This document shows, piece by piece, positions 14 through 6,326 of a stretch of DNA of 23,127 nt; within the stretch, counting starts at the first letter, position 1, and every line of letters begins with the position of its first letter. This DNA comes from a virus. The position numbers and the translations under genes were made by a program. The notes below the pieces were generated by a model that was not told the DNA's origin, made no database searches, and saw only the letters and a list, made by a program, of their open reading frames with translations. Location of the stretch: IMG/VR virus record IMGVR_UViG_3300023170_000182, positions 1 through 23,127 of that record. One strand, written 5' to 3'.

Positions 14-1456
14 TCAGCACTTCCAGCGACGACGGGCTTTGCAAATTGCTTTATCGGGGTCTTTTGAGCAATCGATGTTATGCATGTCTTGCTGCCCCTT
101 AGAGCGTGAGCAGAAGGACTTTCTGCGTTTAGCATCCTTACTACCTGGTTTTGGATCACCAGTTACAGCAGTTTTAAGTTTGGAACCTGGGTTCTCACGG
201 CGATAAGCATTAACTGCTTTCTGACTCATACCATCAGTTTTATCACCCTTGTTGACCTTCTGCCAATCCTCTCCAAGTTCTTCTCTCCAATTAGAAAAAC
301 TTTCCTTAGCAGTCTTTGGTCTTGTTGTACTATAAAGTCTTTTATTTCCTACACCTGGAACGAATTCACCAAGTTCACCTTTTGCTTTATCATTATGATC
401 AACATCACCATCTGCATCAGTATCAATTCTGGTAACCGCCTTTTTAACAAGTTTTTTTAGGTTTGTTGATGGAACTTCATGTGGAGTGTGTGCTTGTTTA
501 TGAATCTCATTCAGTTCTTCTTCTTTGACGCAGTTGGGAACTACTTTGTCTCCTTTTTTCTTCATTCCAACCTGCTTATATCCAACCCAACACTTCTCAT
601 CAATGGGTTGACCACCTTGAATTGGTTCTGGTTCAATGAGATTTACCGTTTCAATTTCAAGTGCCTTGAAGTCATCTCTCCAATTTGAAAAATCATAAGA
701 CTCTGACTTATTTCCCCAATTGGCAGCACCGACTTTACGACACTTTACAAGTGCTCCTGAGGCATATGCACTTGGCCAAACAGAATAACGAGACTTGACC
801 TTATTATAGCAAGCGTCCTTCTTGCCACTACCCTTACCTGGTTTATCTTTTGCTTCTGTTACTTCTACTTCTTCTTTTTTCATTTTTTTCTTAGGGTCTG
901 TAGAGACATATGTTGGTTTTGCGGCACCAGACTTTTGTTGTTGACCAGGATCTGCTTTCTTCTTTCTTCTTTGAGCAGAAAGTCTTTCTGCCTTAGTCAT
1001 ACTTGCTCTTTTTGCAGAAGAGACGCACTTGGGAGTTCCTTCACCGGGTTCATCACTCGCACAAGTTCCACCTGTTACAACATTAACCCAACCGGATTTG
1101 CCATCTTTTGATTTGGACTTTCCGAACCAATCGCGGAGTCCTTCTTCACTTACGGTTTCTTCATTGGTCACATAATCTGCGGCAGTATCAATATAATCTG
1201 CTGCTTTTGTGATTTTGGATTGCACCCAAGCTTGCAGATTGCCCTCACCTTTTTTACCCATCTTCTTTTGAAGACGCTTTGCAGCATTAGTCACAGTTTT
1301 CAACTCAGACCGTGCCATTGAGTATTCGTGATCTTTCTTTTCTTCTGACATTTTTTTCTTCTTACCCTGACAATGGGCACGTTGACTAAAACCTTTTGGG
1401 TTGTCACAATCAATTGATTTTTTATATTTTTCTGACCAACCCATTGGGGAAAACAA
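14..1456 (-). CDS. Lys/Cys-rich modular phage protein with an EF-hand-like loop, next to the small terminase gene
   Basis: Function unknown. The 480-residue protein is very basic and looks like a string of short modules, most with a Cys pair. These are GWSEKYKKSIDC...HC (residues 6-29; C17, C29); GWVNVVTGGTC...KC (122-144; C132, C144) followed by a basic tail; DACYNKVKSRY...VKC (214-239); CWVGYKQVGMKKKG...NC (289-309); an acidic loop DTDADGDVDHND (345-356) with calcium-ligand spacing; and a C-terminal block from WQKVNKGDKTDG through SFCSRSKG to the last residue (398-480; C449, C463, C472, C480). FSNWR occurs twice (256, 387). From memory, such modules occur singly or combined in marine phage proteins, and the GWVN...C part resembles DUF5872-type sequences. 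It starts two bases after gp16, so it is probably late-expressed. The TTG start (1456) has AAGAG at good spacing; ATG at 1444 (Met5) is the alternative. A virion, scaffold or DNA-associated role is inference. Confidence 0.75.
   Translation of the reverse strand: MFSPMGWSEKYKKSIDCDNPKGFSQRAHCQGKKKKMSEEKKDHEYSMARSELKTVTNAAKRLQKKMGKKGEGNLQAWVQSKITKAADYIDTAADYVTNEETVSEEGLRDWFGKSKSKDGKSGWVNVVTGGTCASDEPGEGTPKCVSSAKRASMTKAERLSAQRRKKKADPGQQQKSGAAKPTYVSTDPKKKMKKEEVEVTEAKDKPGKGSGKKDACYNKVKSRYSVWPSAYASGALVKCRKVGAANWGNKSESYDFSNWRDDFKALEIETVNLIEPEPIQGGQPIDEKCWVGYKQVGMKKKGDKVVPNCVKEEELNEIHKQAHTPHEVPSTNLKKLVKKAVTRIDTDADGDVDHNDKAKGELGEFVPGVGNKRLYSTTRPKTAKESFSNWREELGEDWQKVNKGDKTDGMSQKAVNAYRRENPGSKLKTAVTGDPKPGSKDAKRRKSFCSRSKGQQDMHNIDCSKDPDKAICKARRRWKC
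389..424 (-). other. EF-hand/dockerin-like calcium-binding loop
   Basis: Codons 345-356 of the modular basic protein encode DTDADGDVDHND. Acidic residues stand at loop positions 1, 3, 5, 7, 9 and 12, with Gly at 6, the canonical 12-residue calcium loop. Only one loop is present and no clear EF-hand helix pair flanks it, so it may be a single dockerin-like Ca2+ site rather than a full EF-hand. Confidence 0.6.
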
Positions 1457-1458
1457 GT

Positions 1459-1884
1459 TTACTCTTTATTATTTAGAAAACCTTGTTTGAGTAGTTTTTG
1501 TAGTTCGGTAGTTGAACCAACAAACACTGCATTATTAGTAACATTGTTATTGGTAGTTTTTACAGATTCATCCTCAACATCTTTGAGTTTTTTCTGTAGG
1601 TCAATAAGTTTGTCTGTAGTATCGGCAACACTTTTAATCAACTGACCAGCAACTTCATACGCTCTTGGACTTCCACCCTCACCAGCAAGTTCCATAATTC
1701 CGTTGATTGCTTCTTGTCCTTTTTCAATCAAGGAATACAAATTGGCACGAGTATACTCATAGTCCTTTTCAATATCAGGACCTTTTGGTTTTACATTTTG
1801 AATTTCTGATGAAACTTTTTCTGGTTTCACAATACTACTCTCAACATTGAGAGCATTGTCTATAGAATCATAATTATCAGACAT
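1459..1884 (-). CDS. 16: Small terminase subunit gp16 (T4-like)
   Basis: This is the DNA-recognition and regulatory subunit of the packaging motor, which works with the large ATPase/nuclease gp17 at the portal. Its 141 residues compare with 164 in T4. The pattern matches remembered T4 gp16 along its length: an N-terminal acidic stretch, then DIEKDYEYTRANLY (37-50; T4 DLEDDYGVVRRNMH), a predicted helical core with GSPRAYEVAGQLIKS (71-85; T4 DSPRHMEVFATLM) and DLQKKLKDV (95-103; T4 KLHKDMKDI), an Asn-rich linker, and NNAVFVGSTTELQKLL (117-132; T4 QNATVFMGSPTELMDE). The helical middle is the oligomerisation region in this family. It starts at an ATG five bases after gp15, with no strong Shine-Dalgarno, so translation probably depends on coupling. 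Position directly after gp15 is as in T4. Confidence 0.92.
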   Translation of the reverse strand: MSDNYDSIDNALNVESSIVKPEKVSSEIQNVKPKGPDIEKDYEYTRANLYSLIEKGQEAINGIMELAGEGGSPRAYEVAGQLIKSVADTTDKLIDLQKKLKDVEDESVKTTNNNVTNNAVFVGSTTELQKLLKQGFLNNKE

Positions 1885-1889
1885 AACTA

Positions 1890-2690
1890 TTAAATATCAG
1901 TTTGTTGAGTTGGACTATAAGTCTTAGAATCTGTAAAATCTTCCCAAACTTCACTAAACCCAAAGTCATCATCAGGTTCAGCATTAATAGGATCTGGTGT
2001 TACTGTATATCTGACCTCTCTCTTAGCAGTCTGAGTATTGGTATCCGCATACATATCAACCTGAACCTTACGAATAAGACCTTCTGTAGAATCTGCAATA
2101 GGACCATACATGTATGACTTTGCCGTGAATCTTAAAGTATAAATCAGTGCTCTTCTTACAGTGAAGTCCCCCTCATAATCATCCTGCATATCAATACTGT
2201 CAAGAACAATTGGGATATCTTTCTTCTCTCCAATAGAGTCAATTAAATCTAAAGTTAAATTAAATGATGGTTGGAAAAAAGGAAGTATTTGCTCGATAAT
2301 TTGTAAAGCATCATCACTAAGTTTTGAATAAATGCTTAACTCAAATCCAATATTATAAGGAACTGGCATATAAACTTTTTTTATATTGCCAGCACCATCC
2401 GATGCTCTAAAGGTTTGGGTTACGCTAGTTTTTCTTGTTGGATCATACTGTAAAGAAACCATTTCAAAAGACATTCTTGGTAAAGTAATCGCAATGGGTT
2501 TTTTTAAATCTGCCTGTTGCTCCAACTTTGCCAAAAACTTTTGCATTGGACCATATGAAAGTCCAACCTTTGTTTCATCTACTACGTTGTTGTTTTTATC
2601 CTCATGTTTAATGTAAATGTTGTTAAAAAGAGTTCCGAAACTAACAATCGTTTTTCTTATAATTTCGTGATAAAAATAAGTTCCTAACAT
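1890..2690 (-). CDS. 15: Tail terminator / tail sheath stabiliser gp15 (T4-like)
   Basis: gp15 forms the ring that caps the finished tail tube and sheath and docks the tail to the neck. The 266-residue length is close to T4 (272). Matches to T4 gp15 run from end to end: the start MLGTYFYHEIIRK...LFNNIYIK (1-28; T4 MFGYFYNSSFRR...LFSNIQIK), LPRMSFEMV (70-78), QIIEQILPFFQPSFN (130-144; T4 QIVEQILPYFQPHFN), RRALIYTLRF...MYGPI (179-198) and EGLIRKVQVDMYADT (203-217; T4 EGLIRTTYTDFHANT). The C-terminus is acidic and diverges. The ATG overlaps the gp14 stop by one base (TAATG), with GGAGA six bases upstream, which supports this start. No truncation or insertion is seen. Confidence 0.95.
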   Translation of the reverse strand: MLGTYFYHEIIRKTIVSFGTLFNNIYIKHEDKNNNVVDETKVGLSYGPMQKFLAKLEQQADLKKPIAITLPRMSFEMVSLQYDPTRKTSVTQTFRASDGAGNIKKVYMPVPYNIGFELSIYSKLSDDALQIIEQILPFFQPSFNLTLDLIDSIGEKKDIPIVLDSIDMQDDYEGDFTVRRALIYTLRFTAKSYMYGPIADSTEGLIRKVQVDMYADTNTQTAKREVRYTVTPDPINAEPDDDFGFSEVWEDFTDSKTYSPTQQTDI

Positions 2691-4117
2691 TAATATTCTC
2701 CAAATGGATTAGTTTCGGTAAAATCTAAAATTCCGTCTGCCTCTGTTTCAATCTCTTCATTATTATCAAAAGATTCTTCATAACTATCATTATCATATGA
2801 TTTAAGTATATAGGAAGCAGAAGAATCTGAACCAGTTATTACTTCTCCAGCAGAGAACTGTCCATCATTTACAGCAACATACAATTCTATCGGTGGATCA
2901 TTCAAATCAATATCTGTTCTGAATACTATATTTCTAATTTCTGCTGTTGTTCCAGAAAGTGAACCCGTTATAGTTTCTCTGAGTTGATATGTTCCTATTC
3001 CTGTAGTTGATACTCCTGCTATTGATACTGTTGGTGCGGATGTGTATCCTGTTCCAGCATTTGTTATTTGAAGTTGAGAAACAACCCCAGTTGAAGAATT
3101 TACAATTGCCTCTGCCGTTGCTGTTGTTCCTACTGCAGGAGCAGAAATGGTAACGATAGGAGCATAGAAATATCCAGTACCAGCAGTAGAAATTGAAAGT
3201 GTTTGTACTCCATTATCAACAATTATTGCTGTAGCAGCTGCTCCTGTCCCACTTCCTCCAGTTATAGTAACTGTCGGAGGATCTGATGAGGTATATCCAG
3301 ATCCAGCATTTGTTATTCTAATTTCTTTTACAGATTTAATACTGCCAATGGATGTTGTTATAGCAACTGCTGTTGCTCTAGTTCCACTGGTTGGAGCAGA
3401 AATGGTAACATTGGGAGTTGAGGAATAGTTATATCCATCATTAGTCAGACTAATTCTTCCAACCATTCCAGCACCACCAATAGTTGCCGTTGCACTTGCG
3501 TCAGCACCAACAGGTTCCAATGTTAAAGTTGTAATATAACCTTCGTCTTGAACTGTGTTATCGATTTCTTCTACAGATACATCAATATCTTCATTTTCAT
3601 ATTCATAAAGTTCGCACTGCAGTTCATATACATATGTTTTTCCTAATTGATAAAAAGGTTTTTCTGCTTCAACTCTTTTAATTTCAAATAGTCTTTCTCC
3701 TAAAGGAAAATATATTAAATCACCCTCTCTTGGCCTGGAGGTGAGCGTCATTGTTTGATCGGTAATATTGCCATCTTCAATTCCAAGTTTTATTCCTTCC
3801 AAATATGGCGTTATAAATTCTTCAAACCTTTCTTGAGAAATTATCAGATTTATTTCATTTTTCAATCTTATTCCAAATTTGGTCATTATATCAGATCCAG
3901 GAGCATATCCCTCATAATTGTCCAGATATGCCTCAATGACAAAATTATCATCAAATCTAGAAGATTGAACTTCTCCCAAAATATCATCAGTCTTTAAAAA
4001 TTTTCTGGGGAGATAATAAACATCAATCCCATAAATTTTCAGTTGTTCATTTATCAAATCTTGTATTAAGAATTGCTCTCTAGGAGATCCTTGTAAGAAA
4101 AATGGATTGAGTGTCAT
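2690..4117 (-). CDS. 14: Neck protein gp14 (T4-like) with an inserted GYT-repeat block
   Basis: gp14 forms the head-completion/neck ring with gp13 that joins the DNA-filled head to the tail. Residues 1-180 match T4 gp14: an N-terminal NPFF..., VYYLPRKFLKTDDILGE (33-49; T4 CYYVPREYVSPDLIFGE), YLDNYEGYAPGSDIMTKFG (64-82) and EGDLIYFPLGERLFEI...PFYQLGK (131-160; T4 EGDLIYFPMDNSLFEI...PFYQLGQ). T4 gp14 has 256 residues and this one 475. The extra length is mainly an Ala/Thr/Gly-rich segment (about 205-370) with four repeats around NDGYN, NAGSGYT, TAGTGYF and NAGTGYT. A further beta-like domain (375-440) holds ETITGSLSGTTAEI and GEVITGSDSSASYI. The family-like end is DFTETNPFGEY. It starts two bases after gp13. 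The insertion is in frame and the gene looks intact. Confidence 0.93.
   Translation of the reverse strand: MTLNPFFLQGSPREQFLIQDLINEQLKIYGIDVYYLPRKFLKTDDILGEVQSSRFDDNFVIEAYLDNYEGYAPGSDIMTKFGIRLKNEINLIISQERFEEFITPYLEGIKLGIEDGNITDQTMTLTSRPREGDLIYFPLGERLFEIKRVEAEKPFYQLGKTYVYELQCELYEYENEDIDVSVEEIDNTVQDEGYITTLTLEPVGADASATATIGGAGMVGRISLTNDGYNYSSTPNVTISAPTSGTRATAVAITTSIGSIKSVKEIRITNAGSGYTSSDPPTVTITGGSGTGAAATAIIVDNGVQTLSISTAGTGYFYAPIVTISAPAVGTTATAEAIVNSSTGVVSQLQITNAGTGYTSAPTVSIAGVSTTGIGTYQLRETITGSLSGTTAEIRNIVFRTDIDLNDPPIELYVAVNDGQFSAGEVITGSDSSASYILKSYDNDSYEESFDNNEEIETEADGILDFTETNPFGEY
2697..2701 (-). promoter_or_regulatory. Ribosome binding site of gene 15
   Basis: GGAGA on the minus strand, six bases before the ATG at 2690 and inside the last codons of gene 14. 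It supports the chosen gp15 start and coupled translation across the TAATG overlap. Confidence 0.7.
3008..3505 (-). repeat. Four tandem GYT-type beta repeats inside gp14
   Basis: Residues about 205-370 of gp14 contain four degenerate units of about 40-45 residues. Each has a strand such as IRITNAG, a Gly-Tyr turn (GYN, GYT, GYF, GYT at residues 228, 274, 315, 357), a strand of the type PTVTI, and an Ala/Thr-rich stretch. The units diverge from one another at DNA level, so this is an old protein repeat. T4 gp14 lacks this segment. Confidence 0.8.
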
Positions 4118-4119
4118 AA

Positions 4120-4956
4120 TTATCCAATAAAGTCTAGTGGTGGAAGTTCATATTCCATCGTCATTCTTTGTTTAATATCTTCAAGTTCTCTTTCCGCATC
4201 TTCGTAAAGTTGCCTTCCATTCAATTCAATTCCTCCAGGCAACTTAACTCCATTAAATTTGATGAGGTTTTGACCCCACTGTCTTTTAATAAGAGAAGTT
4301 AAATATTTTTTCAAGAAACTATCATTATATATTTGAGTAAATGATGCTGGATCAAGTGCTCTATAACATTCAATGACTATAAATTCGTTTGCTACCTGAG
4401 AACCCCAATCAATATCCAAATATAATCTGTCTTGTCTTTTATTGAATCTAACTTGTTTATCTGTTGTTAGTAAAAAGTCAATGTCTTCCAAATAAGATTT
4501 GACCATAGAATATTGGAGAAGTTCTACGGAATTAAAATAATATAAGTCGTTTAAGAATAACTGATACTTGATACTGAACATTCCACCAGAAATTGAACTG
4601 GTATCAAATTTAAATATCCTTTCAATTCCTATTACAGAATCTGGAACTTGTATAAAATTAGAAGTTTCATAAAAATTGAATGTAGTAGCAGCAATTCCTG
4701 TGGAAGTTCCCGTAGTCGTTACAATACCAACACCATCAGTTCCTTGTGCTCTACCTCTAGCAACATCATCGCTAGTTATCTTGTACTTTAAGTACATTTT
4801 TTCAACGCCGTCAAAATGACGTTCATTGAAATATTGTATTGCATCATCAACTAAGTCATCAATCTGTTCATCATCAACATTAATTTCCAATACAGGAGCA
4901 CCTAATTTTCTAAGACAGTAATCTATTAGTCCTTGCCTTGTACTTGGTTTTGCCAT
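4120..4956 (-). CDS. 13: Neck protein gp13 (T4-like head completion)
   Basis: gp13 is a head-completion protein that binds beneath the portal and, with gp14, seals the packaged head. At 278 residues it is slightly shorter than T4 gp13 (309). The N-terminus CLRKLGAPVLEINVDDEQID (14-33) and ALQ-like helix ending HFDGVEK (47-53) match T4 [20 protein letters not shown]...HFDGVNK. The C-terminus KLPGGIELNGRQLYEDAERE (about 234-253) matches T4 [20 protein letters not shown], and both end in a PP...G tail. A short Gly/Thr-rich loop, GVGIVTTTGTSTGIAATT (75-92), resembles the VGIGTT runs of the neighbouring giant proteins. The ATG overlaps the stop of the preceding gene by one base and has a strong GGAGGAGA Shine-Dalgarno, so the start is secure. 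Confidence 0.95.
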   Translation of the reverse strand: MAKPSTRQGLIDYCLRKLGAPVLEINVDDEQIDDLVDDAIQYFNERHFDGVEKMYLKYKITSDDVARGRAQGTDGVGIVTTTGTSTGIAATTFNFYETSNFIQVPDSVIGIERIFKFDTSSISGGMFSIKYQLFLNDLYYFNSVELLQYSMVKSYLEDIDFLLTTDKQVRFNKRQDRLYLDIDWGSQVANEFIVIECYRALDPASFTQIYNDSFLKKYLTSLIKRQWGQNLIKFNGVKLPGGIELNGRQLYEDAERELEDIKQRMTMEYELPPLDFIG

Positions 4957-6326
4957 TAGTATTCTCCTCCATCAATTGTTGAAGTCCATTTTGGAACTCC
5001 ACTTGATTGTTCTATTGTTAATATGTAGTAACTTGTTGATAATAAACTTTCTGTACTAGCTGCTCCAACTAGTTTTCCGCTATCATCAAAATATGCAACA
5101 CCATTTGGACCATCATAAGTTCCAGCATAATAATTTGGTGCATAAACATCAGTGTTGAATGCTAATCTAGAATTAGAATTATCCCACGATAAAGTTTTGT
5201 CACCATCTAATCCATGAATTGTGATTCCAGCACCATCAAGTTGCGAATTATTTAATTTTGGTACTGCAGAAGCAATTCCAATGTTAATATCTTCAACCTC
5301 AAGAATCTCAGTGTTTATGACTGTCTGAGTTCCGTTGACAGTAAGATCACCAACAACTGTAAGATTATCATCAACAGTGACAGTTCCAGATGCAGAATCT
5401 AGAGTTAATCCGCCAGATGAAGTATCAATTTCATTTCCATTGATCCTTACATTATCTACGTTAGCGGAACCATTAACTGAAAGATTGGATCCATTAAAAG
5501 TTAAATCAGAACTATCCTGAACCGATCCACTACTCCCAGCAAGAAGAACTCTTCCTGAGGTTAAATCTGTGATTCTTGCCGAATTTACAATTAAATCTGA
5601 TCCATCATAAGCAAGATTTACATTATCCTCTAGAGATCCACCAGGACCCGAAATAACGATCCTATTATTGGTTAAATCACTAACTGTTGCGGAAGAAAGT
5701 ATTGTTTCTCCACCAGAAATATCTGCTCCACCATTACCATCAATAGCAGATGTAAATGTGGCAATCCCTACAAATTGAGATTTCTGACCAACATAAATTC
5801 CACCAGAAACGGTTAGATTTTTGGCAATGCCAGCACCACCATCAAGTTGTACTGAACCAGTATTGGAATTTCCTAATGTATTTTGTGTTGTATTAGTAAA
5901 AGTTGTTACACCAGATATTTGTGTAGCACCACTTACAACTAAATCATTTAAAATGTTAACAGCAGCATTAATATCAACATCGGAAGAAAATGTCGATATT
6001 CCAGTTACTTCTAAATTTTCGCCAACATTGAGGTTTTTGGCAATTCCTACTCCACCACTAACAATTAAAGCTCCAGTCGTGGTAGATGTAGAATCCTCCG
6101 TGTTTGTAAAATATGCAATTCCTTCAATTGTAGTTAATGACGAATCAATGCGACTCGTCATTATAAAAGATTCTGATGGGAGATCCCAAACAAGAATCAT
6201 TCCATCTATACCTCTATATGCCTTATTGACATCATCGAGGTTTATAAGTCTTGTTGCCGGAGAAGACGCATTAGATAATACACGAACTACATTTTGAGAA
6301 CCAACTCTTGCTTTTATAGTAGGCAT
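4956..6326 (-). CDS. Repetitive beta-structured fibre-like protein in the whisker (wac) slot
   Basis: A 456-residue Asn/Ser/Gly/Thr-rich protein with almost no Cys. It has an N-terminal head (1-75, including GIDGMILVWDLPSESFIM), then two pairs of internal repeats. TGALIVSGGVGIAKNLNV (84-101) pairs with TGSVQLDGGAGIAKNLTV (156-173), and VSDLTNNRIVISGPGGSLED (215-234) pairs with ITDLTSGRVLLAGSSGSVQD (252-271). Next is VVGDLTVNGTQTVINTE...VEDINIGIA (324-352), a motif common in phage fibre shafts, then DGAGITIHG...LSWDNSN. The C-terminal part (about 395-456) has no recognised fold. The gene lies just before gp13, where T4 carries wac (fibritin), but I see no fibritin coiled coil. A neck or tail fibre role is inferred from position and repeats. 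Its ATG overlaps the preceding TAA by one base, with AGGAG ten bases upstream. Confidence 0.8.
   Translation of the reverse strand: MPTIKARVGSQNVVRVLSNASSPATRLINLDDVNKAYRGIDGMILVWDLPSESFIMTSRIDSSLTTIEGIAYFTNTEDSTSTTTGALIVSGGVGIAKNLNVGENLEVTGISTFSSDVDINAAVNILNDLVVSGATQISGVTTFTNTTQNTLGNSNTGSVQLDGGAGIAKNLTVSGGIYVGQKSQFVGIATFTSAIDGNGGADISGGETILSSATVSDLTNNRIVISGPGGSLEDNVNLAYDGSDLIVNSARITDLTSGRVLLAGSSGSVQDSSDLTFNGSNLSVNGSANVDNVRINGNEIDTSSGGLTLDSASGTVTVDDNLTVVGDLTVNGTQTVINTEILEVEDINIGIASAVPKLNNSQLDGAGITIHGLDGDKTLSWDNSNSRLAFNTDVYAPNYYAGTYDGPNGVAYFDDSGKLVGAASTESLLSTSYYILTIEQSSGVPKWTSTIDGGEY
4963..4970 (-). promoter_or_regulatory. Strong ribosome binding site of gene 13
   Basis: GGAGGAGA on the minus strand, six bases before the gp13 ATG and inside the last codons of the fibre-like gene. 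It is the strongest Shine-Dalgarno I saw among the gene starts in the window. Confidence 0.8.
5472..5681 (-). repeat. Tandem duplication B in the fibre-like protein
   Basis: Residues 216-249 and 251-285 form two adjacent units of about 34 residues with the shared frame DLTxxRxxxxGxxGSxxDxxxLxxxGSxLxVNxS/G. They diverge at nucleotide level. Confidence 0.75.
5748..6089 (-). repeat. Repeat pair A in the fibre-like protein
   Basis: Residues 80-115 and 153-193 share the frame TGxxxxxGGxGIAKNLxV, followed by a strand and a VGI/TGI-xTFxS end. The copies are separated by about 37 residues containing a third, partial GVTTFTNT end. Confidence 0.75.

Follow-up and report, generated by a model that had tools for sequence, protein, structure and literature searches.

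The window analysed here, the whole stretch of 23,127 nucleotides, is a 23 kb IMG/VR fragment whose T4-like genes lie on the minus strand and run from baseplate and neck genes through gp13, gp14, gp15 and gp16 to a gene for a mosaic protein (table 1). Coordinates of 14..1456 for this gene run from a TTG codon; the common start of homologues is the ATG at 1444. Because relatives begin there, the mosaic protein has 476 residues. Its 12 cysteines fall at residues 13/25, 128/140, 212/235, 285/305 and 445/459/468/476, which reproduces exactly the spacings (11, 11, 22 and 19 residues) and the C-terminal block of four Cys described in an earlier note made from the letters alone. The chain is also as rich in Lys and Arg as that note had it: the two residues make up 21%, the net charge is +33 and the pI is 9.5. 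Eight other proteins of the window that were checked have pI values of 4.1–5.0, and together they contain 7 Cys in about 4,660 residues. Another structural gene has grown in a similarly mosaic way: the gp14-like protein (475 amino acids; positions 2690–4117, minus strand) has a repeat-rich insert at about residues 180–380, with GYTSAPTVTI-type repeats, and this insert matches PHROGs of tail-fibre, baseplate and structural virion proteins. Head-decoration and structural PHROGs match only separate pieces of a protein of 456 amino acids (4956–6326, minus strand), whose gene lies between gp13 and a small tail-fibre-assembly-like one.

Table 1. Features of the mosaic gene and its upstream neighbour (positions in the window).
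Feature	Residues	Positions	Strand	Remarks
gp16, terminase small subunit		1459..1884	−	gene directly upstream; phrog_445, E = 1e-56; Pfam DNA_Packaging, E = 1.8e-10
Complete mosaic protein gene	1–476	14..1444	−	ATG at 1444, stop at 14–16; 476 aa
Module 1	1–34	1343..1444	−	Cys pair 13/25; GWSEKYKKSIDC...FSQRAHC
Module 2	35–92	1169..1342	−	helical, Cys-free; position shifts in some relatives
Module 3	98–190	875..1153	−	Cys pair 128/140; distant kin of DUF5872 C-terminal half
Module 4	204–247	704..835	−	Cys pair 212/235, VWPSAYASGALVKC; distant kin of DUF5872 N-terminal half
First FSNWR motif	248–266	647..703	−	acidic
Module 6	278–313	506..613	−	Cys pair 285/305; CWxGYxxxGMKKKGxxxVPNC
Module 7	326–372	329..469	−	holds DxDxDG calcium-type loop
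DTDADGDVDHND loop in module 7	341–352	389..424	−	EF-hand/dockerin-like spacing
Second FSNWR motif	378–394	263..313	−	
Module 8	395–476	17..262	−	Pfam DUF6321, four-Cys form 445/459/468/476

The protein is a linear array of short modules. At least five had been proposed, and these are present; the count proved too low, as it omitted a Cys-free helical module, a module with a DxDxDG loop and two FSNWR motifs. A single-domain family spanning the whole protein was considered and rejected: only DUF6321 matches in Pfam, and the modules move independently of one another. Searches of PDB sequences, made with the full chain and with profiles of four modules, returned chance-level matches only. Pfam and profile searches found no catalytic domain, DUF6321 being the only match above its Pfam cut-off. 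The full-length AlphaFold2 model was left out of fold inference because its mean pLDDT is 42.

DUF6321 (PF19846) matches residues 401–474 with E = 2.9e-11 and 44.3 bits, against a gathering cut-off of 28.5. The window copy differs from the usual form in having four Cys rather than two and in being part of a long mosaic rather than a protein of about 90 amino acids. Modelled alone from 60 diverse sequences with AlphaFold2 (mean pLDDT 79.7, about 90 in the core; pTM 0.63), the domain is confidently predicted to adopt a small helical fold. A Foldseek search of this model against the PDB gave one match, not a convincing one (E = 5.8), and recognised no DNA-binding fold; against a viral library it returned essentially DUF6321 proteins. 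Modules 3 and 4 are linked to a second Pfam family, DUF5872 (PF19197). Its C-terminal half is matched by 13 of 17 stand-alone module 3 proteins and its N-terminal half by 7 of 11 stand-alone module 4 proteins. Neither the window protein nor the cyanophage copies of module 3 match DUF5872 directly at E-values up to 10. Profile–profile alignment with hhalign spans 72 columns of module 3, at 97.4%, and only 21 columns of module 4, at 93.5%. By these profile comparisons, the two modules are distant relatives of the DUF5872 halves, connected through intermediate phage proteins. The order is reversed in the window protein, where module 3 precedes module 4, and in one further locus (L280) the two are fused in a single protein of 113 residues. 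DUF5872 has been annotated in the alga virus CpV-BQ1 (PMC12085832); in the literature searched it appears as that bare annotation only, and no paper on DUF6321 was found.

The loop of module 7 follows the strict pattern DxDxDGxxDxxD in 30 of 36 unique copies, and this module probably binds calcium. Searches for an EF-hand or dockerin domain in the window protein gave no Pfam match and weak PDB sequence matches (E at least 0.28). In the full-length model the module 7 region has pLDDT values below 50, so its flanking helices are not readable there. The FSNWR motifs were considered as T4-like targeting and cleavage signals. This is not supported, as both motifs are internal, and a regular expression for FSNWR run on four complete cyanophages found two proteins of one phage only, plus one weaker match.

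The window protein belongs to the T4-GC119 family of cyanomyoviruses, known as phrog_727 (E = 4.8e-94, the match spanning most of the chain) and also matching phrog_3477 (E = 4.3e-75). A total of 452 phage records match the family, and cyanophages are the majority. Seven cyanomyoviruses carry one DUF6321 copy per complete genome; S-PM2 and HTVC008M have none. Related IMG/VR loci have gp15 upstream in 50 cases, gp16 upstream in 52 and gp17 downstream in 16, and in P-SSM2 the family gene lies between gp15 and gp16. Gene family and genome position are those of Syn9 gp114, S-SM1 SSM1_115 and S-SM2 SSM2_109. Modules 1, 2 and 7, both FSNWR motifs and the four-Cys form of DUF6321 are present in the window protein and absent from those of S-SM1 and Syn9. 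The family is already known; in the cyanomyovirus literature it is labelled hypothetical or structural only, and no description of its module composition was found in the papers searched.

Ten profiles derived from the window protein served to scan its relatives, and sub-profiles were merged before orders were counted. There are 23 distinct module orders among 86 relatives, in proteins of 271 to 712 residues. The order in P-SSM2 is 3-6-4-8. Module 2 is placed after module 4 in S-SRM01 (L100) and in L074 and L077, module 7 is present in two copies in L012, and module 6 is found in further cyanophage proteins too. In Bellamy and S-SM2, module 1 occupies a separate open reading frame (ORF). These ORFs (L097:3971-4126 and L096:3668-4096, respectively) overlap the start of the mosaic gene and may represent either a split or a state preceding fusion. 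The proposal that shuffled units recur in marine phage proteins is strongly borne out by these orders, by the duplications and by the single-module genes described below. The S-SM2 protein (L096:4093-6216) has a complete DUF192 domain among its modules (E = 3.6e-24). Many relatives have another Cys-rich module at the N-terminus, KCKxGYYYCY...KCKxIPxGxxxG, which mostly replaces module 1 (L055, L063, L064, L065, L067, L070, L074 and L092). A Flavobacterium phage protein of 841 amino acids (L090:2387-4912) combines two copies of module 2 with a weak dockerin match.

Conservation of the Cys pairs was counted over unique aligned copies in an enlarged alignment. An alignment of whole proteins mixed with separate modules was dropped, since it misplaced modules 1 and 3. 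Module 1 has the full pair in all 24 copies and module 6 in all 39; of 162 copies of module 3, 145 have it, 16 have neither Cys and one is truncated. The outer pair of module 8 is kept in 225 of 237 copies, the remainder being cut or gapped; its two extra inner Cys occur in 29 sequences, always together and never singly. Module 4 has both Cys in 30 copies and neither in 23; in a further 15, counted as a group, the second Cys is shifted by one column and the first is unaligned. The Cys pairs are therefore conserved far beyond chance. In every resolvable pair the two Cys are retained or lost jointly, the pattern expected of a disulphide or of a common site. The existence of Cys-free forms of modules 3 and 4 means that the pair is not essential to these two modules. 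The earlier description of the modules as metal-, disulphide- or nucleic-acid-binding units is plausible: the strict coupling supports pairing of the Cys, and the isolated modules are extremely basic by their sequences.

Many marine phages outside the cyanomyoviruses encode modules 3, 4 and 8, and at times module 1, in separate adjacent genes. A scan of GTDB genome contigs for DUF6321 gave 62 loci, mostly on marine metagenome-assembled or single-cell contigs, many with small ORFs for modules 4, 3 or 1 beside the DUF6321 gene. Two more scans, of viral contigs, raised the count to 226 loci, four annotated phage loci included. In 88 of these, modules 3 and 4 are encoded by separate ORFs on the same strand as a separate DUF6321 ORF; the median gap is 365 bp for module 4 and 530 bp for module 3. 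The 88 loci are related to one another and do not count as independent. Module 1 is separate as well in six of them; it forms a small gene of its own in L156–L159, L248 and L297. The gene order is 8-4-3 in 42 loci and 4-3-8 in 40. A reversed-sequence control gave no profile match. Isolated genes for modules 3, 4 or 8 were not found in four complete cyanophage genomes, where these modules lie inside the mosaic gene only. The separate proteins of modules 1, 3, 4 and 8 are short (median lengths 52–93 amino acids) and very basic, with median net charges of +17 to +27 and pI values of 10.6–12; the median net charge of the mosaic family is +37. The genes occupy two settings. In one, they are found at or around the stretch between the terminase large subunit and portal genes (L202). 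In the other, they follow the major head protein gene, and no terminase gene is recognised nearby (L248, L264, L297). The mosaic resembles a fused version of a conserved set of head-region genes, and the direction of change was probably fusion rather than fission. The presence of both fused and separate forms in the head and packaging region argues for a shared job in the particle.

Relatives are present in purified virions, one according to published mass spectrometry and one according to its record label. The mass-spectrometric detection is that of S-CREM2 gp137, whose gene is flanked by gp16 and gp17 and whose C-terminus is the four-Cys DUF6321 (module 8); 4 unique peptides cover 4.1% of it. 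This protein is acidic overall (net charge −20, pI 5.0) and keeps DUF6321, so overall basic charge is not essential. S-SCSM1_29, with modules 3, 4, 6 and 8, is labelled 'virion protein'; the S-SCSM1 study identified 45 virion proteins by mass spectrometry, and the label presumably marks such a detection. A second S-SCSM1 'virion protein', encoded at L088:3644-5206 beside the virion NMNAT gene, contains module 7 and an FSNWR motif, so modules are common to different virion genes. The S-CREM2 protein adjoining gp137, gp136 (L378:2402-3115), is basic (pI 10) and Cys-free and yielded 8 peptides from the virion. It begins with MQTFSMFFSEDAG, a possible capsid targeting peptide.

The most likely role of the mosaic protein is that of a virion protein inside the head which binds the packaged DNA, a reading given a probability of roughly one half. 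DNA binding in the head is favoured because the separate forms are very basic and lie beside head genes. Points against it are the acidic S-CREM2 gp137, the lack of a recognised DNA-binding fold, an N-terminus with no evident capsid targeting peptide, the low peptide coverage in S-CREM2, virion detections that give no site within the particle, and the P-SCSP1u shell described below. The protein would string together small modules, mostly basic, with flexible linkers between them; a Cys pair of its own would stabilize most of the modules. The pairs would probably be disulphides in the mature particle rather than metal sites, and one module would probably bind calcium. Cyanomyoviruses would make one fused chain, and other marine phages the same units from separate small genes in the head and packaging cluster. 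Three roles had been suggested previously: DNA condensation, internal head protein and terminase accessory. The data do not separate these three; the gene neighbourhood and the proteomes of two virions point to a virion or head protein.

The alternative that fares best, though it is unlikely, is a packaging accessory that works with terminase or portal during DNA loading, for example by holding DNA or the terminase small subunit, and is carried in the particle incidentally. Such a role fits the position next to gp16 and gp17 in cyanophages and, in L202-type phages, between the genes for portal and large terminase subunit; it is harder to reconcile with the genes that follow the major capsid gene with no terminase recognised nearby, with the P-SSM2 position between gp15 and gp16, and with the relatives in purified virions. 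Somewhat less probable is a capsid or neck stabilizer, in which Cys cross-links would toughen the particle in oxidizing seawater and the calcium loop would add stability. The strictly coupled Cys pairs, the DxDxDG loop and the adjoining head-completion genes are as expected for such a protein, but its strong positive charge would be unnecessary, and modules 3 and 4 have Cys-free forms. The cryo-EM paper on P-SCSP1u, a podovirus tied to P-SCSP1n by close name and host group, also counts against it: the icosahedral shell consists of the major capsid protein only, so the stand-alone protein would be no ordered part of the shell there, if the gene is present. That paper mentions neither hypothetical proteins nor mass spectrometry. 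Least probable is a protein packaged in the head and injected with the DNA to act early in infection on host nucleic acids or defences: fast module turnover, the gene-variable genome region around gp16–gp18, the virion presence of relatives and the DUF192 domain gained by one of them are in its favour, but the window protein has no catalytic domain, no N-terminal targeting peptide is seen, and the core modules occur on contigs of very different marine bacteria, unlike a host-specific effector.

The DNA-binding head protein may belong to something broader. Modules 1, 3, 4 and 8 could be an unrecognized virion nucleoprotein kit, widely shared among marine viruses, that neutralizes and organizes the packaged DNA; this extension is tentative and on balance doubtful. 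The kit would exist as adjacent small genes in many tailed phages, as fused pairs in DUF5872, which is annotated in at least one alga virus too, and as a full fusion in cyanomyoviruses. If correct, this reading would amount to a protamine-like role, which is rarely described in tailed phages. Were the job DNA condensation, abundant ocean viruses in general would share a trait that current virion models leave out. Relative to the literature searched, the module map, the coupling of the Cys pairs, the relation between fused and separate genes and the joining of DUF6321 with DUF5872 are new. They join an unexplained cyanophage gene with two Pfam families of unknown function in a single connected and testable problem. 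The separate genes, short and single-module, lend themselves to expression, to DNA-binding assays and to the solving of structures.

Two further known systems invite comparison. The internal head proteins IPI–IPIII of T4 (PMC9026906) are, like the window family, basic, virion-associated and fast-evolving proteins of T4-like phages. Profile searches gave no family match between them, and the window protein differs in having Cys-paired modules. No N-terminal capsid targeting sequence is recognised in it; its N-terminus is module 1, which stands alone elsewhere. The polyvalent proteins described by Iyer et al. (2017, PMC5512222) are phage proteins that share with the mosaic a variable make-up of several units and probable packaging. 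The window protein, by comparison, carries no enzymatic domains, and its modules are tiny and basic.
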